21,788 nucleotides of DNA, taken from assembly GCF_000003605.2 (NCBI RefSeq), contig NW_003120958.1, forward strand, positions 7,430 to 29,217, read 5' to 3'. This DNA is from Saccoglossus kowalevskii (lineage: Eukaryota; Hemichordata; Enteropneusta; Harrimaniidae). Of this stretch, positions 3,140-21,482 are shown piece by piece (the first letter of the stretch is position 1; each line of letters begins with the position of its first letter). The notes beneath the pieces are model-generated. The model saw only the letters and a program-made list of their open reading frames with translations, searched no databases and was not told the DNA's origin. The position numbers and the translations under genes were made by a program.

Positions 3140-4051
3140 TTACATTTTATACACACATGCTACGCCCTTCTCTCTTATCTTCTTATCTATGCTAACTTCA
3201 AACATCTCATTCTCAGCCACAGTGAACTGATTCTTCCAGTCACCAACTACTCCTTTCCTAAAAAAGGCAGCCGCAAATCCAGACATTATCTCTTCGTCCA
3301 TGTCAATTTTTGAAGCAGACTCTGGATTGTTGCGTAAATTATCAATTGAGGTCTTCAAAATTACGCTTTCTATTCGTGATTCCGGGAGAGACCGACCAAG
3401 GAACTCTGTTATTGCGTACACAGTCTTCTTGGTGTATTTTATCATGTCTTCGTAAGTGACGTGAAACACGTTCTCGTCTTGGCCATGTTCCCTCCAACCA
3501 GCTACGTGGTCCACCCACGGTGTGAATGGGAGTTTGTCATTTACGAATTCGCTGAGATGGTCTTCCCAGGTAAGCTTGCCCCGAAGTCTGTTGGTCTTCG
3601 CATGCCAATGGTAACTAGAAACCGCGACATCTTTAGGATTACGAGTGATGTATATCACTTTCGCTCCGACCTGGAATGCTTGTTTAGGAAATACTTCATA
3701 TGGTAGATGCGATTTTATAAGTCGCGGTGAGGGCGTCGCGTCCGGGTCATGCTTAAAAGAAATAACCGTCTTCTGCAGAGGCGTCGGTTCATTAAATGAC
3801 CGTTGCAGCAGCCACATTATCATGGGGGGTATTCTCTTCTCGCCGTGTTCAAACACATTTAAATCGGGGTACAGTTCTTGCAGAAGAAATAACATCCATG
3901 TGTTACCTGACTTGGGGAATCCTGTAACTATAACGTCATCTTGACGAAATTTGAAAGTATTCAGCAGTCCGTCCTCCAGTTTTGTTTTATCAATATATAG
4001 AGGCCATGCGTAACCCTTGTATGTGTAGTTCTTATGTACAAACTCAGCCAT
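3140..4051 (-). CDS. Cytosolic sulfotransferase (SULT1-type), intronless
   Basis: The 303-residue product is a full-length member of the cytosolic sulfotransferase family (usually about 285-305 residues), which moves sulfate from PAPS to a hydroxyl or amine of small molecules. Visible motifs are the 5'-phosphosulfate loop TGFPKSGNTW (43-52, Lys47), the catalytic histidine in KSHLP (His115), the 3'-phosphate site ITRNPKDVAVSSYH (135-148, Arg137 and Ser145), RKGVVGDWKNQF (265-276), and a KxxxTVxxxE dimerisation pattern (Lys273, Thr277, Val278, Glu282). There is no signal peptide or membrane segment, as expected for a cytosolic enzyme. The start is chosen because about 40 residues normally precede the first loop, and the ATG has G at +4 and a TATA box about 60 bases upstream. 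The substrate cannot be read from sequence. The lack of introns could be ancestral or reflect retrocopying. All key residues are intact, so it is probably active. Confidence 0.95.
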   Translation of the reverse strand: MAEFVHKNYTYKGYAWPLYIDKTKLEDGLLNTFKFRQDDVIVTGFPKSGNTWMLFLLQELYPDLNVFEHGEKRIPPMIMWLLQRSFNEPTPLQKTVISFKHDPDATPSPRLIKSHLPYEVFPKQAFQVGAKVIYITRNPKDVAVSSYHWHAKTNRLRGKLTWEDHLSEFVNDKLPFTPWVDHVAGWREHGQDENVFHVTYEDMIKYTKKTVYAITEFLGRSLPESRIESVILKTSIDNLRNNPESASKIDMDEEIMSGFAAAFFRKGVVGDWKNQFTVAENEMFEVSIDKKIREKGVACVYKM

Positions 4052-4111
4052 ACCTTCAAACGCAAGAACGGGGAACGCAAGCTCGTAAAGTTCCCGCTTT
4101 GCTTATAAACG

Positions 4112-10193: not shown

Positions 10194-10264
10194 TTATTTT
10201 TTCACAAGAAAAAAAATTATTTCAGCATCCTCATTCTTTAAATTCTGCAAGGAATATGCATTAC
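10194..10264 (-). other. CENPC: CENP-C exon 13: last strands of the cupin and stop
   Basis: The exon begins after the acceptor TTTTTTTTTTCACACCAG and continues the glycine codon split by the intron (CCA CCA G / GT AAT GCA). It encodes NAYSLQNLKNEDAEIIFF followed by LVKK and stop. This parallels the human C-terminus, where GNYYNIKNL is followed by a hydrophobic strand and a basic end. Reading straight through the upstream donor at 10900-10901 would instead give a short tail ending at 10870, which breaks the cupin, so the spliced form is preferred. Confidence 0.9.
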
Positions 10265-13200
10265 CTGGTGTGAAAAAAAAAAGAAAGTGAATTAATTAAT
10301 AGTATTAACCTCTGATGCGCCACTATTCTGGTGACATTCAGTAGCATTGCACTGATTCACTGTATTTGGGAATTGGTTTTGTACACTTGACCAGCAATAT
10401 AGTCAGCTAATTGGCTGACAACACAGCTGTCTTGCAAGCAATGTCACTTTCAGGAAGCCAGCAGAATTGGAGGCAACATGTATTGTTCCCCAATTAAGCT
10501 GGCAATATTGCTGGTTAGGTGTACATAAATTCAAGATCATAGTAATTTAGCACCAGAAATTTATTATCATGAATAACTGTAGGTTTCTTCTGCAGAAAAA
10601 AAAAGTGTCAATCAGATTCATGATCAAGTCTCAAAGAAGCCAGTGATCTAGTTATCAACCTTCTGGCAGTGCGTGTTCGAATTTAATGTAAATAAACAAT
10701 GTATTTTACACGCGTTGTGAACGTCGCTATGAGTCACATATCGAACAGGACACGACACGACGACTGCCGCCCTTTAATGCTTTATGGTCATTAGCCATGA
10801 ATATCACGAGAACTAAAAACAGTGACCAATAAATTGTTACATTCATGTTATAAATGTCATGCGAGAAGCTTAATTTCTTGGGATGCAACAAAAGACAATA
10901 CCTGGTGGAACGAAGAAATGGTCATCAGTTCTGACAAGAAACTCTGTCTCGTGAATCAGTACATTGAGTAGGCCAGTCTTTACAATGAAAGCCAATGTGT
11001 ACTGTCCAACAAGTTGAGCAGGTTTGGACTGTAATGGCCTCAGAATGAGGGAACCAACAGAAAAATCCTTTTCATCTATTGATTTAGAGATGATCAGGGA
11101 ATCGTCTGGGCAGGCTGGCTCACCAGTCGGACCGTGATAGTCAATGGCGAAACTAGGCCTGACACAATCTGTGAATAAAATAAAAGAAAAGATTAAAGAA
11201 ACAGTCAAGAATGGGTTGACAAGCTAAGACTAGATCATGATTCAAACCGCCTTTTGATCTACAACTTTGTTAAGTGTTTTCTGATACTTGATAACCACTC
11301 TACTACTTACCGATATTGATGACACTGTTGGTACTGGTGTCTATGACAGGAATCATTACATCACTGATTTCTTCATAGGTCCCATCAAGCTGCACGTCAT
11401 GAAATACATTACTGGTATATTCTGGAACTATAAAACAAAACAAAGAAGCGTGTATATGTAGAAAAAACTTTTATAAAAATATACAAAGAGCAATTAATTA
11501 ACTAATCATTTACAACAATCATAAAACTACAAAAATAGCAGTGTAGCAGGTTTCAATCCATTTAAGGGAAACTGTTAAAATATAAACAAAGCATGCTGAA
11601 AGTAAATAATTCATAATTAGTATGCAAATTAGCTAATTAATATGTACAGAATAAATTCAAACTAGGATTACACATTCAACTAAACTTGCAGTACGCATGT
11701 ACAAGGTTTCAACTTACAGCAAAAATGTCCTTTCTTAATATTTTATAAGATTAAGAGCTTCAGATTAAGGTAAATAAGAATTAGTATATCAAATGATATG
11801 TTTTAAAAGGAGCTGCTTACAATTTGTTTTCAATTTCTGCCAAAACAGAAATATAAAAGAGAAAAAATAAGAATAAGAAAAAGGTTTAAATTTCATGACC
11901 TGACATTTTTTTTTTCAGCTTTACACTATTATAAATATTGTACAAGTGTGTCCTACAGTGAATCAAAGAGTCCTGCTAAACTAAATGCTATATGTTATAT
12001 ATACAATAAATACTATGATTGTATTTCATGGTGGTACCAATGTTATACTCACTTTTGTTCACAGCTTTCTTGGAGTGTCCTTTTTTTGGAATATTATTGT
12101 TTCGTTTGACCCTTATTTTAGTGGAAGGCGTCTGGATATCGACCAAGGCAAGTCCTCCTGATTGTCGCCTCTCATAGATTGGCTTTTCTAACATCCAGAA
12201 CCGGGTTGGTGGTACTCTATTTCGTCTACTTCGCCGTGTGCCAGGTGTAGGATTGTTACAAGCTGTAACTAAAAGAAAAAAAAATATTACCATAAATATC
12301 ATCATATTGTTCTCAAAGTACATCTACCCTTGTACTGCCAAATATTACATACATGTGCATTAATACAGTTACACCAACATCGCACAATGAAAGAGTGTCT
12401 ATAGTATGTGACGTAATACTAAATATATGGAAATGTGTTAGAACTGTACTAATATATCATTATGACCGACAGTATGCCTCCCTCTATGCCATGAACTTCC
12501 AATCAAATATAACCATTTTATTTGGAATAGTGAACACAATTTGACTGGCAAAAACTAATGTCTAATTGTCATTTTAGACAAACACTCCACATTTTAGACA
12601 GGTTATAAAGCTCCCAAAATTTAAATAATCAACAAAAAATATAAAATAAATAAATAAAAAGACAAACAAGTGATCTAACGGTTGAAATAGCTCCGCTACC
12701 CTACAAGAACATTGTGGTAGCCAAGTCGAGAACAAATTGTTCACAAAAATAATATACACTTCAAATATTAAAGTAATCAGATTGGTAAATAATTGATATC
12801 GTTATTAAATGAACAAATTTCACAGGAGCACCCCAAGGTATTCACATACCAAGTATCAAAGAAATTGAGCAGGTAGTTTTTAGAAGTCGAAAATGCAATA
12901 GTTGATGGACGACGGACAATCACCTACATGAACAGATCTGCTATGTCATCTATGATGACAGCGAAGCTAAATGAAAACTTACTTATTTTTTGTTTCTCGA
13001 CTTTCATTATCTTTTTTCCTGCAGGCGTTTCACTTACAGAGTGAGTAGAAAATGGATGTTTTGTATTTGTCTTTGATTTAGTTCTTGATGAAGCTGTTAG
13101 ATGATAGGTATAAAAGAGAAAGAATATCAAATGAAGTTCTCTATTTGAGGAACACATATCATATAGATGTCCAAGGAGGTGCATAATAAACATGTACTAT

Positions 13201-16200
13201 CACCTACCAGGAATTCAACCATGATTTTCTTTCAAATTACTTACAGAGAGCAGTATTTTTGCAAATACTGATTATTGGGCAATGTTACATTTTGAGATGT
13301 ATGTAAAATTCAACTTAGTTCTATCATTGAATGCTTTTCCAGAAAAATTGGAGGCACCTTGTATATCGTACAATCACAATTTCACTGTAATTTTGTATTC
13401 TCAAAATAAACAGTTTTTAAAAAACTAATCATTTAAAAATCTGGAGTATCGCATAATATTGATAACATAGTTACTAATATCATGATAAAGATCACTATTT
13501 TACAAACTAATGTTCTAGTGTTTTCCAAGAAAAAACAAAACAAGCAACTAACCTTTCTTATTCTTTGGTTGTTTATTCTTGCTTTTTGTAGCATTCTTTG
13601 TCACTTTCTGAATTTTTGCCATGACCTCATAATCACTGTCTCTGTTGTCAGAAGCAGACTGATCTCTTTGTCTTTTCAATGATTCATTCTGAGTATTGAC
13701 TAAGGTGTTTTCACCACTAGATGATGCAGAATCTTCATTTTCATTCACAACACTGTCAAACTCTTGCAGAAGACTACTGTACAGTTCACTGGATTCTATG
13801 CAAGTTGGATGCAAACACATTCAGAATAAGAATAGTGTCATATATGCAATTACTTAATATTTAAAGCCATGGAAGTCATAATAGCTGTTGAAATCTAATG
13901 GTTTGAAGAGAGGTTAGGCAGCTGTCTCAACGAAAAGGACGAGGGTTCAATCACCAAACAATAAATCTATAGAACTCTGTGGTCATTTTTGGATATAAAA
14001 CTCAAACAGAAAACACTTGTTTTAGAAAAATTTGGAAATTTTACAGTATTTTTTTTCACCCCAGTTATATCATATCAAGGAACAATGTCAAAGGCTTTGA
14101 ATATATTTACAAATACAGTTTCAATGAGTCACAGGGCTTGCTATCATGTATCTTATTAAGCCAAGGTTTGTTTATTTTATGAAAGTCAAATAAGCCATCT
14201 CTTGGTAGATTCATGCATTTGTTCATGAGGGTATACGTTTAGATCAACTTTATAGAATCATGTGATTCGAATGATGGCCATCATATGTGCCTTGTGTCTT
14301 CTTCATATGGTTTTGTGAATAGTTAAATACCATTATGGTAGCAAGACACCCTGTTGTATCTACCTGAATATTCACCCACTGATGATTTCTTTTTTTCTGT
14401 CTTTTTTCGATCTGTATTTGTATTATTTTCAACTTTTTCCAATTCAGTCACATTGTTCATTTTGCCTCGACTCTGCTTCGGTTTCTTTTTAGCCTTATTT
14501 GCAGCTTTATTGGATCGTTGTACTTCGCTAGGCCATTCTTTAGGAGTCTGTTGTTCCTTTGGTAAAGTGTTTTCCTTCATCACTGTATCCTGGCCTTGAC
14601 TCTCGTTGAGTACCCAGAATTCAACGGGTGGTATCCGAGACCTATTCGATTTACGTGCCGGTGTAGCTACAGATTGCAACGAGAAGTAAAAAATGATATT
14701 TTTCAATATAACATTTATTTAGAGGTGACTGTTACTGTAGATGTAGAAAAAAAAAACATACACAAAAAACCTTTCTGTTTTCCATGCAACAATATTTGTC
14801 TCAACAATATTTGTCTCTTATGACTGATTTTAAAGGTGTTCACCATAATGATGAGACCCAGAGAAAATATTCATGTTTCTGGTCATGTGTCAGTTAAAAA
14901 TTTATAAATGGGCACATTCAAATTTCTTCAAAAATGTTAATACTTTAAATTAAATGTTAACAGTAATCCCCACACCAAATATTAAATAATTATTAACTGC
15001 AATTGAGGTGAATAATTGTCACATTGGGGAGACAAATCTTCATATACCTCAAAAGCTTAGGAGTTTACTTGTCAAAATCCTGTGGTGATTTGAACGTCTG
15101 TGGTCTCATTGGCAAGTATGCAGCCCAGCATGTAACAACCTAGCACAACAGTCTTGGTAAAACAGTACTGTTATAAGGAGATAATTATCACCGATTCTTG
15201 CAGTAATCTAGTTTGCCGAACCTGTCTGTACTTGGACATTTAGCATTTTGATGTTCAAATTTGATCCAAATTCGGCAGCCAGCATGGTGTTGTGTGGTTC
15301 AACATGAAGAGGCCATTAGAGTAGAATGTTAATGTGATTTGCACGAACTGAGGGGTATATTGTGATTTATTTCATTCCAAATGACCGACTCTCCTCCAAT
15401 CAGCTTTGTGTATTAGAGTATAAGAGATGACAATACTACAAGGTTATTACGAGGATACTACAAAGTATGCATGAAGACAGAACAGCAGGATTATCGACCG
15501 TCGTGCAGCAGAGATTGATATGAATGTGTACTGCCTGAGGGCATATTTTGTGGTATTCTCATAAATAACCTTATTAAATACATCTTTTCCTCTCAATTAT
15601 ATATTATAGGGATGCTGAAATACAAAAAGTAATAGTTTCATATTCGAAATTCGCATTTCCTAATATGGTAGAATGCAAATACCCAGTGCATTACTGCAAA
15701 ATTACGACACACTGTAACTGACAGATGTATAATTAAGCACCAAAAACAATACAATTTCTCGTTCCATTAAAAGCCATATCTGCACTCGTATCGACACTCA
15801 TTCAAATGTTCAAATTTTCCCTTATAAGAGGTAAACTACATCGCCAACTTAGACACACTACAGGTTATTGACATCACATTAGAACAACTTCTCTTTGTTT
15901 ACCTTGGATGTAGAAGTGTGATAGAAATAAAATCCTGACACTCACAAATATGTGCACAGCACAAAACTGCATGATGACCATACTGCCTTTGTGCATACTT
16001 TGCGGTATTCTCATGATAACCTCATAGCATTACATGAAGTAGTATCGGTAGCTCTATTTTTGCTTGCATGTGTCAATACTTCATCTCACAATACCACGTG
16101 TTATTTCTGGTATTTACCGTGATAATCCTTGAATTATTACATGTCAAAGGTTTGAAGAATACACCTTTTAGTACAACGAGAGCCACTACAACTTAGATTT

Positions 16201-19200
16201 CATGATTTCACCTTTATGATTACTGTAAAATACTTTATTTTAGCTGAGCTGGAATCAATTTTTGATGAAAAGACAATTTGGGTGTTTTGTATGGAATTTA
16301 TTTTCACTAATTTTTGAAATGTTGAATGTAAAAAATAGGAAAAAGGGTATATTTGCTGGATTTTATTTTCACTGAATCATGCCTTCAGCAAAAATAGCGA
16401 AAATTAATTCCAAGCAAAAATAAAGTATTTTACAGTACTACATTACAAAAAATGTTAAAAGTTTTACCTACCTGAACTCTTAACAACCATTGATGTCTTC
16501 TTTCTTGTTGTACTTGAATTATTTTTAACATATTCATCTTTTCTAGCAAGCACAGATTCGTTCACCTTTTCCTTATTACTCAGACCCTTCTTGGCTTTCT
16601 TTACATCTTTATTTGATTCTTGCACTTTACCGTGTACTTCATTGAGATTCGGTTGTTGCTTATTTTTTTTTGCTTTCTCTGAGGTACTTTCGTCCAAATC
16701 TGTCCCCTGGTATTGACTGTTGTCGAGTACCCAGAATTCAACTGGTGGTATTCGAGTTCTGTTGGATTTACGTGCCGGTGTAGCTACAGATAGCAACAGG
16801 AAGTAAGAGGCATCAGTAAAAAATAAATGTAAAATAAATTGCTTCTCTCACAGCAACATTCCGACAGTGTTATTACGTCTTTGCTTTCAATATAGATATT
16901 TGTTAACTGGAATTTGTCAGACTCAGACAGAAAAAAAAATTGTACAACATTTTCAGCTATTTTCTAGGTCTTTTCTCTGTCACTTACCTTGTCTATTCTG
17001 AATCTTGCCTTTCTTCTGAGATGTGGTCGCATTTCGCTGAGATTGGGAAGAATTCTGAGACGAGATTACAATTTCAATATTTTCAATATCCACTGTACTG
17101 TCTTTGTAGATATTCAGTTTTTTCTTCTCTGATGTTTTTGCTTTGTACGCCTTCCCTTTAGTTGTGGCTTTCTTTTTGCTCTTCACAGCTGCTGATGAAG
17201 CACTTGGCTTTTCTGCTTCATAATGCCTCTTCTTTTCTGCAACTACACCAGTACCTTTCTTCATTGGACTCTCCTTCAAAACAGTTGCGGCAAGCGCAAT
17301 AATTTCAGAATGTACATCCTCCCCAGTTTCCTCAATATTGTTGTTTATATTCCGATGTGCATTTGTCTTGTTTGGACCTTTCGTTTTGGAACCCTTCCGT
17401 TTTTGCTTCTTTAATTTCTCAGAAGCTACAGGTGCATCATAAAAAGTTATCTCATCATAATGCCTTCTACCAATTGCATCCTGTTTTTTCTGTCTCTGTT
17501 TAGTCTGTCTGTTATCATTTCCACTGTCACTGTCGCTGTAGCTATCTGTATCATCCACCTGCAGATCATCTCTAATTTTCTTATTACGTGATTTATTCCT
17601 TGAGGTTCCTTTAATTGGTCGTCTTGGCGAGTATTTTGCAATGTTTTCAGAGTAGTCAGACTCGTGCATAAAGTTTTCATGCATTGACTGTACATCATGT
17701 TCTGATTCAGGTTCAGAAAGATCTTGACTGTTATTATTAATGTTCTGATCCACAGTTGACCTTTTTGTTTTGGATCCTCTCGTTCCAGACTTCTTCGATT
17801 TCTGAGAAATAACAACTTCATGCTCAGATACATCATCATCATGATACTGTTTTCTAGTAAGCTTCTTCTTTTGTTTGGTCTGTCTATTCTTATTTCTACT
17901 CTCCACGTAACTGGCTGCATCATTTGCCTCCTGCTGAACTTTCCTGTTATGCGATTTATTCACTAAGGGTCTTTTATTTGATTGTCTTGGTGAGTCCATA
18001 GCAATATTTTCAGAGTAGTCTGAGTCACTGCTTTCATGAACAGTTGGTACATCCACCTCCATGTCCGAAAGATCTTGACTATTGTTGTTGATAATCTGAT
18101 CCACAGTTGACCTTTTTGTTTTGGATCCTCTCGTTCCAGACTTCTTTGATTTCTGAGAAATAACTTCATGCTCAGATACATCATCATCATCGTCATACTG
18201 TTTTCTAGTAAGCTTCTTCTTTTGTTTGGTCTGTCTATCCTTATTTCTACTCTCCACGTAGCTGGCTGCATCATTTGCCTCCTGCTGAACTTTCCTGTTA
18301 TGCGATTTATTCACTAAGGGTCTTTTATTTGATTGTCTTGGTGAGTCCATAGCAATGTTTTCAGAGTAGTCTGAGTCACTGCTTTCATGAACAGTTGGTA
18401 CATCCACCTCCATGTCCGAAAGATCTTGACTATTGTTGTTGATATTCTGATGCACAGTTGACCTGTTGGTGCTTTTTGTTTTAGGACCTCTCTTTTTAGG
18501 CTTTTTTGATTTCAGAGTAAAGACGACTTCTTGATCAGAGTCATCATTTTCATCATACTGTTCTCTAACAACGACTTTTTTAATTTGATTCCCCTGATTG
18601 GTCTGTCGGTTGTTATTTTTACTGTCTCTGTTGATGTCTGCATCACCCACCGCCTTGTGCTCACCTTTCCTGTTATGCGATTTATTCATTACGGCACTTT
18701 TAGTTGATTGCTGCGATTGCCTCGAATTGCTAATCTCAAAGCTTTCATTGTCACTTAAAATCACAAACTCGTGAGTTTCACTCGCGTCCGATTCATCATC
18801 TATCTCCAACAGTGTTTTATGAGCAACGACTGGTGAAACAACTTTCTTGAGAAGGGAGAGATTTAAAAAGGATTCTTCAGGTGTATCATGAGGAGCATTT
18901 GCAACTTTTAAGATTGATTTTCGTTTTTTATTGGGAGAAGGAGGAAGAGCCAGTGAGTAGCTTTCAGCGGCCGTTGAGATTGATGTTCTATGTATGTTGG
19001 TATCAGTCTGGTTTATTGCTGGTGACTCTTGACATCTGAAAATAGATGAATTACTGTTAATTACCGGAACTTTGTACATACAAATTCGCAGGCCTCACAC
19101 AAGCAAAAAAAACTTTGCATTCGACATTACAGATAAAGTCAACATACCATAACGATACACATATGTCAGATGTGAATGTTACTCACCTCATGGAATCCTC

Positions 19201-21482
19201 ATCTTCAGTCAGAACTTGTTCATCAGTTTCTACTTCTGTCCCCTGCTGCTCCGCATCACAAGTGGGTAAATTATCCTCAGTTTCGTCATCGGTGACTACT
19301 CTGGAAAACGTGAGCCTACAAAGCCAAGAAATAACATGTTACAGTCCCCTGTACAAGATAAAGAGAAGTTGTGCATCCACCTTGATACAATGTAATATTG
19401 ACACTACAATAGATCAACAAATAAAAGACGGAAATTAGACAGTGAGTAAAATAGTGAAATAAACTAGGTACCGGTACCTAAAATATGAAATGTTGGTATG
19501 ATTTGTCGAAAGGTCAAGCAGCCCTAGCTGCTAGATTATGAGTAAGTTGATTAATTAATTCATGTAATCCATATAGCTCAAGGTGATTTTTTTCTTTCAG
19601 TAAGATCATCAAGATCAAATTGAACTTAACTCCTAATAGTGTGACATCATTCTCTATTGAATTTTATAACAAGTTTTCCTTAGGTAAATACCATGCTCTT
19701 TCCTGAAATACTACTAAAAGGGCATGAACCACTATTAAGTGTCAGTAGATTATATATTCCATTATAATTTGTATTTGTACCAATTTTAAATAAAATTGCC
19801 CCATGCAATTCCACACACACTGCAGAGAGGGAGACATTTCCTGGGTTTAATTTTAAAGGATTTGATGTTGCAGGCATATTCACTGGGTTTTAAATTCACC
19901 AACAGTGATCTCACCGTGCTGGTCGGCCCCGACCGGCACTCAAAATTAGCGATCACCACGGAAATGCTTCCGACCAGGACTATTGTGGATTGTGGAGAAA
20001 ACAGTACATTCTATTGTTAAATTTGAACATTTGAAACCAAGTTAGTAATTAAGCCCTATACAGTACCTGAAAAAGTTTCAGATAAAAAGTGATCACTTTT
20101 AGCCCAACAAACTGACTTCATAAGGATGAATGAATGAATCAAGATAAATACACCTGTCAACCATCCATGATATGAGAGTGCATGCATGAACAGACTGACA
20201 GTCAAAACTCAAATTATAAACTTCTTTCTGAACTTGTTTATATGAAAATTAGCTGCTAAGTATTTGACAAGAGTTGATTGTTGACATCACCTACCAATAA
20301 GATCATTGCTGCATGTAATGATATATTCATTGATTGTTTTAATTTCACAAAAGGTCAGAAGAGAAAACAGCTTTGATATTTGAAAGCAAAACTGAAGAGA
20401 AAATAATTTAACTAAAAATGCTTTTAACAGATGTCAATATTGTTGGTATCATTGGCATACATTTGTAGCATTTGGTTTTACTATACGGTCCAAAAAAAAT
20501 TGAGTGGTTCTGATAACGAGCGATTAAAAAACAGCTTGGGGTAGCATTATTTTCTTTGATCTACCTTGCTGATTAGTTGACACATTTACAGTAAAAGCCA
20601 TTCTAATTTGGCCACCTCCATGTCAGAAAGATCATTCAAGTCACATGATAATCATGTGATTTTATGCAATTTCTTTCATGTTTATACCAACAAAGTTTAG
20701 GGTAAGCAATAAATTTTAGGTGGGGTCAGGGTTAAAGAAACATCACATTTTTTTTTTATTACAACTACCCTAAACACTAATTGAGTCCAACTGAAGTGTG
20801 GATCAAGAAAAGCATAAACTGTATAAAGAAATAGCAACCAACCTTCTTTTCTCCACAATAGTAGTAGTAGTATTTGGACTTTCAACATGCGCTGAAGGAA
20901 CCTTTAAAATTGTACCAGTGATATTCGCTGGACTGCTCGGAAAAATTATATTCTCCTTCTGTACAGGATTGTTATTGTTGGAAACTGAAGCTGACCCACC
21001 AACTGTGCTAGCAGAACGTGGTGAGAAAGTTGGCATTGCTTTTAACGGAGAGCTTCGCTACAAAAAAAATAAACAAAAGAACAAATTAACAACAAAATGT
21101 TGATAAAATTAGAAGCAACTGATTGTTTCATTACTGAGTTTCATTTTATTCAATCATAAATTGACATGCACTCAATTGCTATGGCTATCATAGCTACATT
21201 TTCGCCTGGCAAATAAATGCTTGAGTTTTCTGAAATTTTAAAATATGCATATAAAATGACCTACCTTTTTTTTTGTTACAGTTTTTTTCTGTAACGTCAG
21301 GGTTCTATTAATGTTATCTCCATTATGAGAAGCATAACTCATAACTGACCAGTCATCATCACTCTCTGAGAAATAAAGCATAAATATATCATTTTTTGCA
21401 CTTCTATTGCAGATGCACTTCAAATAGATGTCAAACATGATTGCTCACCATTTTCCACACTTGTATGGTTGTCCTCGATATT
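10194..21482 (-). CDS. CENPC: Centromere protein C (CENP-C) homologue, 13 coding exons, N-terminus not certain
   Basis: CENP-C binds CENP-A nucleosomes at centromeres and links them to the outer kinetochore. Exons from 5' to 3' are 21482-21449, 21365-21265, 21057-20843, 19300-19187, 19035-16988, 16783-16472, 14666-14364, 13795-13553, 13093-12983, 12268-12053, 11427-11311, 11168-10902 and 10264-10194. Every junction is GT-AG and the phases fit (0, 1, 0, 2, 2, then 1 throughout), giving 1383 residues plus stop. Identity rests on the C-terminal cupin ending (VPPGNAYSLQNLKNEDAEII) and the CENP-C motif (RRSRRNRVPPTRFW, then YxxRxSGG). Two more CENP-C motifs lie on separate exons (about residues 838-941 and 942-1042). 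Exon 5 carries four acidic/basic repeats, and the rest is low-complexity Ser/Asp/Lys sequence as usual for CENP-C N-terminal halves. Total size exceeds the roughly 940 residues of human CENP-C. The Mis12-binding N-terminal motif is not seen, so upstream exons may lie outside the window. Exon borders are read by eye. Confidence 0.9.
10381..10524. mobile_element. Foldback MITE-like element in the last CENP-C intron
   Basis: The arm at 10381-10415 (gtacacttgaccagcaatat, then agtcagctaattgg) pairs with 10490-10524 in reverse complement (gtacacctaaccagcaatat, then tgccagcttaattgg). About 30 bases match with few differences. The element can be read as TA-flanked on both sides, which fits a Tc1/mariner-type non-autonomous element. 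It has no coding capacity. Confidence 0.65.
10902..11168 (-). other. CENPC: CENP-C exon 12: main part of the cupin dimerisation domain
   Basis: The exon follows an acceptor TTTATTTTATTCACAG and ends at CCACCAG before GTATTG. It encodes DCVRPSFAIDY, then FSVGSLILRPLQSKPAQLVG, then a strand with LNVLIHETEFLVRTDDHFF and VPPG. These match the human cupin landmarks: VRP, GxLILxPxxxK, QH/LVGQ, LHET, and TGDSFYVPSG. In CENP-C and yeast Mif2 this fold makes the homodimer; it is not an enzyme. The first 30 residues between VRPS and the first strand are less conserved. Confidence 0.92.
11311..11427 (-). other. CENPC: CENP-C exon 11: lead-in to the cupin
   Basis: This 117-base exon lies between TTGTTTTATAG and a strong GTAAGT donor. 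It encodes PEYTSNVFHDVQLDGTYEE followed by a stretch ending NSVINI, which joins directly to DCVRP of the next exon. This corresponds to the segment in human CENP-C just before DLVRP. The spliced join restores an Asp codon (G/AT). Confidence 0.85.
12053..12268 (-). other. CENPC: CENP-C exon 10: third, canonical CENP-C motif
   Basis: This 216-base phase 1-1 exon (acceptor TTTTTTTCTTTTAG, donor GTGAGT) encodes TRRSRRNRVPPTRFWMLEKP and then IYERRQSGG. In human CENP-C the matching signature is an Arg-rich stretch, P-x-x-Y-W, E-R, Y-x-x-R-x-S-G-G. In that family the motif docks an arginine on the H2A/H2B acidic patch while the aromatic pair meets the CENP-A tail. The aromatic pair here is Phe-Trp. 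It sits closest to the cupin, as in other CENP-C proteins, so I take it as the orthologous copy. The exon tail is lysine-rich. Confidence 0.93.
12983..13093 (-). other. CENPC: CENP-C exon 9: short lysine/serine linker
   Basis: This 111-base phase 1-1 exon has acceptor CATCTAACAG and donor GTAAGT. It encodes about 37 polar residues, including RTKSKTNTKHPFS and ETPAGKKIMKVEKQK. No domain was recognised. The call rests on splice sites, matching phase and similar composition to its neighbours. Confidence 0.7.
13553..13795 (-). other. CENPC: CENP-C exon 8: acidic/serine then lysine-rich linker
   Basis: This 243-base phase 1-1 exon encodes SSELYSSLLQEFDSVVNENE, a serine/glutamate region with SASSSGEN, and a basic tail (KIQKVTKNATKSKNK). 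The donor is GTTAGT; the acceptor (ACTTGCATAG) has a weak pyrimidine tract. No known domain is seen. Confidence 0.75.
14364..14666 (-). other. CENPC: CENP-C exon 7: second CENP-C motif
   Basis: This 303-base phase 1-1 exon (acceptor CAATCTGTAG, donor GTAGAT) opens with TPARKSNRSRIPPVEFWVLN, followed by a lysine-rich segment (NKAAN, KAKKKPKQ). The core matches the CENP-C motif: basic cluster, P-P-x-x-F-W, then acidic or polar residues. It is nearly identical in its motif part to exon 6, and the DNA match continues into the upstream intron, so the two arose by duplication. Unlike exon 10 it lacks the Y-x-x-R-x-S-G-G continuation. Confidence 0.88.
15441..15571. mobile_element. Foldback element in CENP-C intron 6
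   Basis: The left end (15441-15470, aggttattac then gaggatactacaaagtatgc) and the right end (15541-15571, gcatattttgtggtattctc then ataaataacct) are imperfect inverted copies over about 30 bases. A third related copy is at 15993-16022. No coding capacity. It is probably a short non-autonomous element. Confidence 0.55.
15993..16022. repeat. Solo copy of the 15541-15571 repeat end
   Basis: The sequence gcatactttgcggtattctc followed by atgataacct matches 15541-15571 with a few changes, in the same orientation. About 25 bases upstream also match, including tactgcct. It lies in the same intron as the foldback copy. Confidence 0.5.
16221..16437. mobile_element. MITE with TA-flanked terminal inverted repeats (217 bp)
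   Basis: The ends tactgtaaaatactttattt (16221-16240) and aaataaagtattttacagta (16418-16437) are exact inverted copies over 20 bases, and the match extends further with few mismatches. The interior is itself partly palindromic (ggaatttattttcact against agcgaaaattaattcc). The TA at each end fits Tc1/mariner-type TA target duplication. There is no coding capacity. It sits in intron 6 about 35 bases beyond the donor of CENP-C exon 6. Confidence 0.8.
16472..16783 (-). other. CENPC: CENP-C exon 6: first CENP-C motif
   Basis: This 312-base phase 1-1 exon (acceptor ATCTGTAG, donor GTAGGT) opens with TPARKSNRTRIPPVEFWVLD and continues into a lysine/asparagine-rich tail with KKAKK. The motif differs from exon 7 at two of 20 residues. 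In vertebrates a single central region shares this R...P-x-x-x-W logic upstream of the canonical motif, and one of the two extra copies may correspond to it. Confidence 0.88.
17310..17600 (-). repeat. Exon 5 protein repeat, unit 4 (diverged)
   Basis: The unit starts at NKSRNKK (NKSHNRK in the others) and keeps NRQTKQ, a basic KGSKTKG, and NINNN in the same order and spacing. It lacks the PTVHESSDSDYSE segment and the acidic run before VVIS. It is the most diverged unit. Confidence 0.65.
17601..17960 (-). repeat. Exon 5 protein repeat, unit 3 (120 residues)
   Basis: It runs from NKSHNRKVQQEANDAASYVE through KQKKKLTRKQYHDDD, VSEHEVVISQKSKK and SGTRGSKTKRSTVDQNINNN to SDYSENIAKYSPR. The first two thirds are almost identical in DNA to unit 2, and the last third has diverged (SEPESEHDVQS). 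Confidence 0.85.
17961..18311 (-). repeat. Exon 5 protein repeat, unit 2 (117 residues)
   Basis: It runs from NKSHNRKVQQEANDAASYVE to SPRQSNKRPLV. It differs from unit 3 by an extra acidic residue or so in the DDDDD run and one missing Val in HEVISQ (VVISQ in unit 3). The C-terminal third is nearly identical to that of unit 1 (DMEVDVPTVHESSDSDYSEN). Confidence 0.85.
18312..18686 (-). repeat. Exon 5 protein repeat, unit 1 (125 residues)
   Basis: It starts at NKSHNRKGEHKAVGDADINR and contains NRQTNQ, VREQYDENDDSDQEVVFTLK, a basic KKRGPKTK segment, then NINNNSQDLSDMEVDVPTVH. Its N-terminal two thirds are diverged from units 2 and 3, while its C-terminal third is nearly identical to unit 2. This mosaic suggests unequal crossing-over or gene conversion. 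Confidence 0.8.
19187..19300 (-). other. CENPC: CENP-C exon 4: acidic segment
   Basis: This 114-base phase 2-2 exon (acceptor CACGTTTTCCAG, donor GTGAGT) encodes 38 residues, about 15 of them Asp or Glu (VVTDDETEDN, QVLTEDEDSM). The donor-acceptor join to exon 5 restores an Arg codon (AG/A). No domain was recognised. Confidence 0.8.
19301..20842 (-). other. CENPC: CENP-C intron 3, 1.5 kb, no exon seen
   Basis: The flanking exons are both phase 2 and join without an extra exon. The intron holds a GC-rich hairpin (19916-19926 against 19929-19939) and a perfect palindrome with 9-base arms around 20640-20660 (tcacatgat/atcatgtga). No gene is seen on either strand. Confidence 0.55.
20843..21057 (-). 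other. CENPC: CENP-C exon 3: serine/proline-rich segment
   Basis: This 215-base exon (acceptor ATTTTTTTTGTAG, donor GTTGGT) starts in phase 0 and ends in phase 2. It encodes RSSPLKAMPTFSPRSAS, then ENIIFPSSPANITGT and a tail VEKRR. SSPLK matches the S/T-P-x-K CDK consensus. No domain was recognised. Confidence 0.8.
21265..21365 (-). other. CENPC: CENP-C exon 2 (of those visible)
   Basis: This 101-base exon lies between TTTATTTCTCAG and a GTAGGT donor. It encodes ESDDDWSVMSYASHN and ends with a lysine run (QKKTVTKKK) from nine consecutive A residues. The phases (1 in, 0 out) agree with both neighbours. Confidence 0.75.
21449..21482 (-). other. CENPC: CENP-C exon 1 (of those visible), 34 bp
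   Basis: This small exon has acceptor CACTAACCTAG, with a good branch-point-like CTAAC just upstream, and donor GTGAGC. It encodes NIEDNHTSVEN and joins in phase 1 to ESDDDW. It starts in phase 0, so at least one more exon must lie upstream. Confidence 0.6.

Follow-up and report, generated by a model that had tools for sequence, protein, structure and literature searches.

A CENP-C gene of Saccoglossus kowalevskii with three candidate nucleosome-reading motifs and a probable tandem duplication of a motif exon

Introduction

Human CENP-C has two nucleosome-reading regions, and the chicken and budding-yeast proteins have one (PMC9252888, PMC7475651). The human regions are the central region and the CENP-C motif. 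The published pattern of the central region is RxxxxPxxWW, and that of the CENP-C motif is RxxxxPxxYW (Kral, PMC4830207). Drinnenberg 2014 speaks of the CenpC motif mostly in the singular, and the cases described in the literature consulted have one or two readers per CENP-C. Here, we describe a CENP-C gene in a 21,788-nucleotide (nt) stretch of DNA from the hemichordate Saccoglossus kowalevskii (RefSeq assembly GCF_000003605.2, contig NW_003120958.1, positions 7,430 to 29,217; the whole stretch is called the window), in which three CENP-C motif cores lie in one open frame ahead of a C-terminal cupin.

The number of nucleosomes held per CENP-C molecule is central to models of regional centromere clustering and stable inheritance. 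A first-pass annotation of the window had set its three motifs against a usual number of one or two, and the published counts for human (two) and for chicken and budding yeast (one each) agree with that statement (PMC9252888). No description of three CENP-C motifs in one CENP-C was found in the literature searched, from which most subscription papers fell outside the scope.

Three CENP-C motif cores in one gene

The CENP-C gene lies on the minus strand, where 13 exons were modelled between 21482 and 10194 on the strength of AG/GT splice sites and an open frame. The frame open from exon 2 comprises 1377 residues, with its stop ending at 10194; a first model of 1364 amino acids (aa) was used for the pattern shuffles and the tryptophan count given below. 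The exon junctions are AG/GT throughout, and exons 6 to 12 are in phase 1 at both ends. The three exons that carry a motif core, and the cores themselves, are as follows.

16472..16783, minus strand: exon 6, duplicated CENP-C-motif exon, 312 nt, phase 1-1, AG acceptor and GT donor
16731..16781, minus strand: first copy of the CENP-C motif, TPARKSNRTRIPPVEFW, at residues 833-849 of the partial model
14364..14666, minus strand: exon 7, duplicated CENP-C-motif exon, 303 nt, phase 1-1, AG acceptor and GT donor
14614..14664, minus strand: second copy of the CENP-C motif, TPARKSNRSRIPPVEFW, at residues 937-953 of the partial model
12053..12268, minus strand: exon 10, cupin-proximal, orthologous CENP-C motif, 216 nt, phase 1-1, AG/GT
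12153..12248, minus strand: third copy of the CENP-C motif, including its tail, TPGTRRSRRNRVPPTRFWMLEKPIYERRQSGG, at residues 1162-1193 of the partial model

The motif sequences read TPARKSNRTRIPPVEFWVL in exon 6, TPARKSNRSRIPPVEFWVL in exon 7 and TPGTRRSRRNRVPPTRFWMLEKPIYERRQSGG in exon 10. Each contains a threonine-proline (TP), a basic cluster and R....P..FW, with phenylalanine at the first aromatic place, and exons 6 and 7 both start with A-TPARKSNR-(T/S)-RIPPVEFWVL. The string TPARKSNR-T/S-RIPPVEFW, quoted for these two exons in the first-pass annotation, is exact. The same annotation had singled out exon 10 as the orthologous motif by its Y-x-x-R-x-S-G-G continuation; among the three motif exons the continuation is indeed found in exon 10 only, and the cupin-proximal position of this exon supports the same assignment. 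With exons 6, 7 and 10 spliced into one open frame, the central claim of three CENP-C motif cores in one gene likewise stands.

The pattern R.{4}P..[FYW]W, which was defined after the motifs had been seen and in which the published Y/W place is widened to F, has three matches in the first model, all of them in exons 6, 7 and 10. Shuffling the model 20,000 times gave no match in 19,994 cases and one match in the remaining 6. The three motifs also hold three of the five tryptophans of the first model.

A profile hidden Markov model built from the CENP-C motifs of human, chicken, rat and yeast was run over the 706 open reading frames (ORFs) of the window, where exon 6 came out on top (E 4.9e-4), followed by exon 7 (E 8.4e-3); a lack of profile score for these two exons would have counted against the first-pass call, and the scores obtained do not refute it. 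In 300 dinucleotide shuffles of the window, the best-stretch score of exon 6 was never reached and that of exon 7 was reached in 4, and in none of the 300 did two ORFs attain the score of exon 7, either with this profile or with one to which the human central region had been added. No further motif exon emerged among the other window ORFs, all of which score at most 5.8 bits with either profile. Against the structures in the PDB, the best of five matches of the exon 6 peptide is the CENP-C motif chain of 4x23 (E 0.038), and the sole match of the exon 7 peptide is the CENP-C chain of the same entry (E 0.4). The case for exons 6 and 7 as CENP-C motifs is built on their place in a CENP-C gene, on agreement and on constraint. 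When the genome was searched with the 23-aa motif of exon 6, the sole matches were exon 6 itself and exon 7; exon 10 was not recovered, and hence diverged copies would escape such a search.

Identity of the gene and completion of the cupin

The identification of the gene as a CENP-C homologue, made at first pass, is borne out by a complete CENP-C cupin and by matches to CENP-C chains in the PDB. The full cupin matches Pfam CENP-C_C (PF11699) with E 7.5e-15 and 55.4 bits, relative to a cut-off of 29, and spans positions 4-83 of 85; in the first model, where the cupin ended early, the match covered positions 4-66 with E 3.8e-8. Exon 13, absent from that model, was located by tblastn with the human C-terminus (E 1e-5). 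Because adding exon 13 completes the Pfam cupin, this exon is supported independently of the letters of that query. Most likely, the stop at 10870 is not the end of exon 12, which splices at 10902 to the last exon (10264-10194).

Exons 10-12 match the PDB chains 7xhn (E 2e-18) and 7by0 (E 2.4e-16), which we take to be human and chicken CENP-C, respectively. The anchor arginine of exon 10 is residue 1170, C-V-R-P-S is found at 1267 and the Pfam cupin match begins at about 1293, placing the exon 10 motif some 100 aa before the cupin, as expected of CENP-C, and co-linear with chain 7xhn 733-923. A 349-residue N-terminal stretch of the model, searched for likeness to solved CENP-C and for the middle region that binds CENP-HIKM and CENP-LN, has no match in the PDB. 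In the assembly (572 Mb in 4830 contigs), the single PF11699 match is this gene, with the best candidates scored and with introns splitting genes; a second CENP-C gene was considered, and none was found with PF11699 among these best candidates.

Duplication of exons 6 and 7 and constraint on their motifs

The similarity between exons 6 and 7 extends upstream of the coding sequence into the introns that precede them, as two copies of one DNA block.

16688..16806, minus strand: copy A of the duplicated DNA block, spanning the final 23 nt of intron 5 and the start of exon 6
14571..14689, minus strand: copy B of the duplicated DNA block, spanning the final 23 nt of intron 6 and the start of exon 7

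The block is 119 nt long and 82% identical (107 nt at 85% in another alignment). Comparison of the surrounding introns by blastn gave short, chance-like matches only and, because the introns are otherwise without a long match, the exon 6 and 7 copies are neither alleles nor recent. We therefore read the two exons as an old tandem exon duplication.

Within the exons, divergence is unevenly distributed. By Nei-Gojobori counts, with a 20-codon border that was picked after the alignment was seen, the first 20 codons of exons 6 and 7 differ by five synonymous changes and one non-synonymous change, giving a synonymous divergence (dS) of 0.404 and a non-synonymous divergence (dN) of 0.023 (Fisher p 0.004); the remainder of the exons gives a dS of 0.888 and a dN of 0.519 (p 0.13). 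The motif shows much less non-synonymous change than the rest of the exon (p 4e-7). On this pattern, both motif copies were kept by selection or were partly homogenised by gene conversion, for which the lower dS in the motif also leaves room.

One CENP-A-like histone among the places found

The first-pass annotation had suggested that additional motifs might serve a second CENP-A type. This idea finds no support in the genome, where 37 histone-family places were found and, after translation of them all, one proved to be CENP-A-like; as the search scores its best candidates, a second gene might have been missed. Three odd H3-like pieces (L022, L025 and L038) were considered as a second CENP-A and are read as H3 copies or fragments. 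The exons of the CENP-A-like gene are the following.

L042 (C3233): CENP-A-like exon, VREVAMQVAGGLSYNWLSPAIMALQE, found by tblastn, outside the 37-place list
L035 (C3233): CENP-A-like exon, 43 residues and stop

Upstream exons of this gene were not found. The 8 best of 174 PDB matches of the CENP-A-like protein are CENP-A chains (best E 1.5e-18), to which it aligns without gaps through the longer loop 1, and its C-tail, LWGYGRGL, is hydrophobic and aromatic. A search with the SANTA domain for M18BP1/KNL2 returned no match, and its control was equally silent, so that nothing follows from it.

Two H2B genes (L023 and L024) encode N-terminal tails of the SPRKSPTK type, and the H2B variants begin PPKSSPRKSPTKSGK. 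Presumably, these tails resemble the sperm-specific H2B of echinoderms and their kin.

Remaining exons and neighbouring sequence

The other exons of the model are listed here in order of transcription.

21449..21482, minus strand: exon 1 as modelled, NIEDNHTSVEN, with an acceptor site
21265..21365, minus strand: exon 2, (E)SDDDWSVMSY...
20843..21057, minus strand: exon 3
19187..19315, minus strand: exon 4
16988..19035, minus strand: exon 5, long charged exon of 2048 nt with an internal 351-bp tandem repeat
13553..13795, minus strand: exon 8, linker
12983..13093, minus strand: exon 9, linker
11311..11427, minus strand: exon 11
10902..11168, minus strand: exon 12, first part of the cupin
10194..10264, minus strand: exon 13, end of the cupin, GNAYSLQNLKNEDAEIIFFLVKK, and stop

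Since exon 1 of the model has an acceptor, it is not the true first exon, and the gene extends further at its 5' end. The last base of the window is directly followed by 3029 N (L003 119-3147), and the 5' exons of CENP-C are probably hidden in this gap, where an N-terminal Mis12-binding region would then be encoded.

The tandem repeat of exon 5 lies at 17716-18464, in 2.1 copies with 95% matches; the length of its unit (351 bp) is divisible by three, and the repeat that it encodes is charged. Inverted repeats (49 nt at 78% and 25 nt at 96%) occur at 15432-16437, in the intron that separates exons 6 and 7, and are perhaps what is left of small mobile elements. Elsewhere in the window, a sulfotransferase open frame occupies 3140-4102 on the minus strand (PF00685, E 8e-57), and no RNA family reaches its gathering score.

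Discussion

We read the locus as a CENP-C gene in which a phase 1-1 motif exon was tandemly duplicated, probably within the lineage, leaving three readers before the C-terminal cupin, and we give this reading a probability of about 0.7. Such a protein would carry three short nucleosome readers (residues 833-849, 937-953 and 1162-1193) along linkers that are charged and probably flexible. The vertebrate motif makes contact through two parts: its basic part binds the acidic patch of H2A/H2B, and its aromatic pair binds the hydrophobic CENP-A tail (PMC5371998). The basic residues of the three motifs would dock on the acidic patch in the same manner, and their F-W pairs would pack on the C-tail of the CENP-A-like histone. 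The distance from the TP threonine to the anchor arginine that follows it is 7 residues in exons 6 and 7 and 8 residues in exon 10, and each of the three motifs has a serine two residues before this arginine. In chicken, CDK1 phosphorylation of Thr651, adjoining the motif, induces mitotic binding (PMC7475651); the TP threonines may correspond to this residue and could let mitotic kinases tune each reader. In the CENP-C motif of Xenopus M18BP1, a phosphorylated serine near the anchor blocks binding (PMC13021935), and the serines here may match it in position. Three readers could provide higher avidity and, with dimerisation through the cupin, up to six contacts. Co-inclusion in one mRNA, nucleosome binding, regulation, linker flexibility and avidity on cupin dimerisation are all things that we infer.

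A more far-reaching version, to which we give somewhat poor odds, is that the main CENP-A reader has moved from a drifted cupin-proximal motif to the duplicated exon pair. Each cupin dimer would then have six readers and draw several centromeric nucleosomes together in one particle; exon inclusion would set the dosage, and a TP site ahead of every motif would act as a gate. A natural three-reader CENP-C in which two readers are near-identical and constrained would provide an internal test of whether centromere strength is tuned by the number of readers, and would mean that the motif exon itself can be multiplied within a CENP-C gene.

Several observations weigh against the reading of a three-reader CENP-C. 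Neither G-E-R-x-x-Y, which forms the second half of the 24-aa motif, nor the R-x-S-G-G tail is present in exons 6 and 7, which we take to match the motif core, like the vertebrate central region, and not the full motif. Exon 10 has the R-x-S-G-G tail without G-E-R, and R in place of the E of P-L-E-Y-W. Its ORF ranks 26th by whole-ORF score (E 23) and fourth by best stretch (4.0 bits), making the orthologous motif, by our comparison, the least typical of the three; and because this undisputed orthologue is nearly missed, the four-motif profile is no full guide to this lineage. Once the human central region is added to the profile, the score of exon 6 is reached in 1 of 300 shuffles and that of exon 7 in 3 of 300. 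The PDB E-values of the motif peptides by themselves are weak, with three of the five matches of exon 6 falling on an unrelated capsid protein. For the CENP-A-like histone, canonical H3 chains follow close behind CENP-A (64.6 vs 69.4 bits). Finally, the inclusion of exons 6 and 7 is predicted from splice sites and frame, and the exon 7 donor, CAG/GTAGATAC, is off the consensus and looks weaker, which also counts for alternative use.

If exons 6 and 7 were indeed alternative, that is, mutually exclusive or stage-specific, each molecule would have two motifs, as in humans, and the gene a switchable reader. These adjacent homologous exons are both frame-neutral, so that either can be skipped without a frame break, and they share the 23 nt of intron 3' end besides the motif. 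However, the frame survives double inclusion (312 + 303 nt), and no enforced exclusion is seen across the 1805-nt intron between them, with AG/GT sites on both exons; the two motifs are identical but for one residue, and a switch would hence alter the motif little. We consider alternative use unlikely. An assembly or annotation artefact, in the form of an allelic or mis-joined exon copy, is suggested by the number of contigs and by the N gap that adjoins the window, but outside the motif 37% of non-synonymous sites differ between the copies, and their introns are unalignable over their length, which speaks against alleles, and genome searches with exon 6 return exons 6 and 7 only. This explanation is hardly credible.

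The pair could also have another origin, with exons 6 and 7 a duplicated orthologue of the vertebrate central region and a central region plus a motif as the ancestral state. Both exons lie N-terminal of the cupin-proximal motif, the W-V-L after their aromatic pair resembles the W-V-V of the human central region, the SGG tail is missing from that region as it is from them, and fish are described with two such regions (Kral, PMC4830207). The comparison of motif cores points the other way. By BLOSUM62 over 16 residues, exons 6 and 7 score 60 and 61 to exon 10, 37-47 to vertebrate motifs (exon 6 to the human motif, 44), 39-41 to yeast and 30 and 29 to the human central region, the lowest of the groups compared; over so short a core, this is weak evidence against a closer kinship with the central region than with the CENP-C motif. 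Moreover, I/V-P-P-x-x-F-W-x-L is common to the three window motifs and absent from all five known motifs compared, a pattern that suggests copying within the lineage or convergence between the copies, and a review describes the central domain as conserved within mammals only (PMC7333888). Copying within the lineage is favoured over central-region orthology, which we regard as improbable to the same degree as alternative use, with the proviso that 16 residues decide little. What the extra copies bind is a separate matter: they might read canonical H3 or H3.3 nucleosomes beside CENP-A nucleosomes, and not CENP-A. A review rates the CENP-C motif of vertebrates as less specific for CENP-A than the central domain (PMC7333888), and CENP-C has been proposed to bridge a CENP-A:H3 dinucleosome (PMC5371998). 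No sequence feature favouring H3 was seen, however; in exons 6 and 7 the position that reads the CENP-A tail still holds an aromatic pair, these exons match the known-motif profile better than exon 10 does, and we judge this option quite unlikely, more so than either central-region orthology or alternative use.

Comparison with known systems

Like the predicted protein, human CENP-C has a C-terminal cupin, a motif shortly before it and more than one nucleosome-reading motif (PMC5371998, PMC7475651). It differs in having two motifs, not three, and in the distance between them: the human central region scores 21 to the human motif by BLOSUM62, compared with 60 and 61 for exons 6 and 7 to exon 10. 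Chicken CENP-C and budding-yeast Mif2 share the cupin-proximal motif, which in chicken is also preceded by TP, and unlike the gene described here they have this one motif only (PMC9252888).

Recurrent tandem exon duplication has a precedent in grass CENP-C, where it affects exons 9-12 (Talbert 2004, PMC549713). The duplicated grass exons are acidic or basic and belong to a poorly conserved middle part, and the CENPC motif there is described as single, whereas in Saccoglossus the duplicated exon encodes the motif itself. An extra CENP-C motif is likewise present in M18BP1/KNL2 (PMC4830207), where it binds CENP-A nucleosomes by the same mechanism (PMC13021935) that is predicted for the motifs here. 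In that system the additional motif resides in another protein, whereas in the gene described here it lies inside CENP-C.

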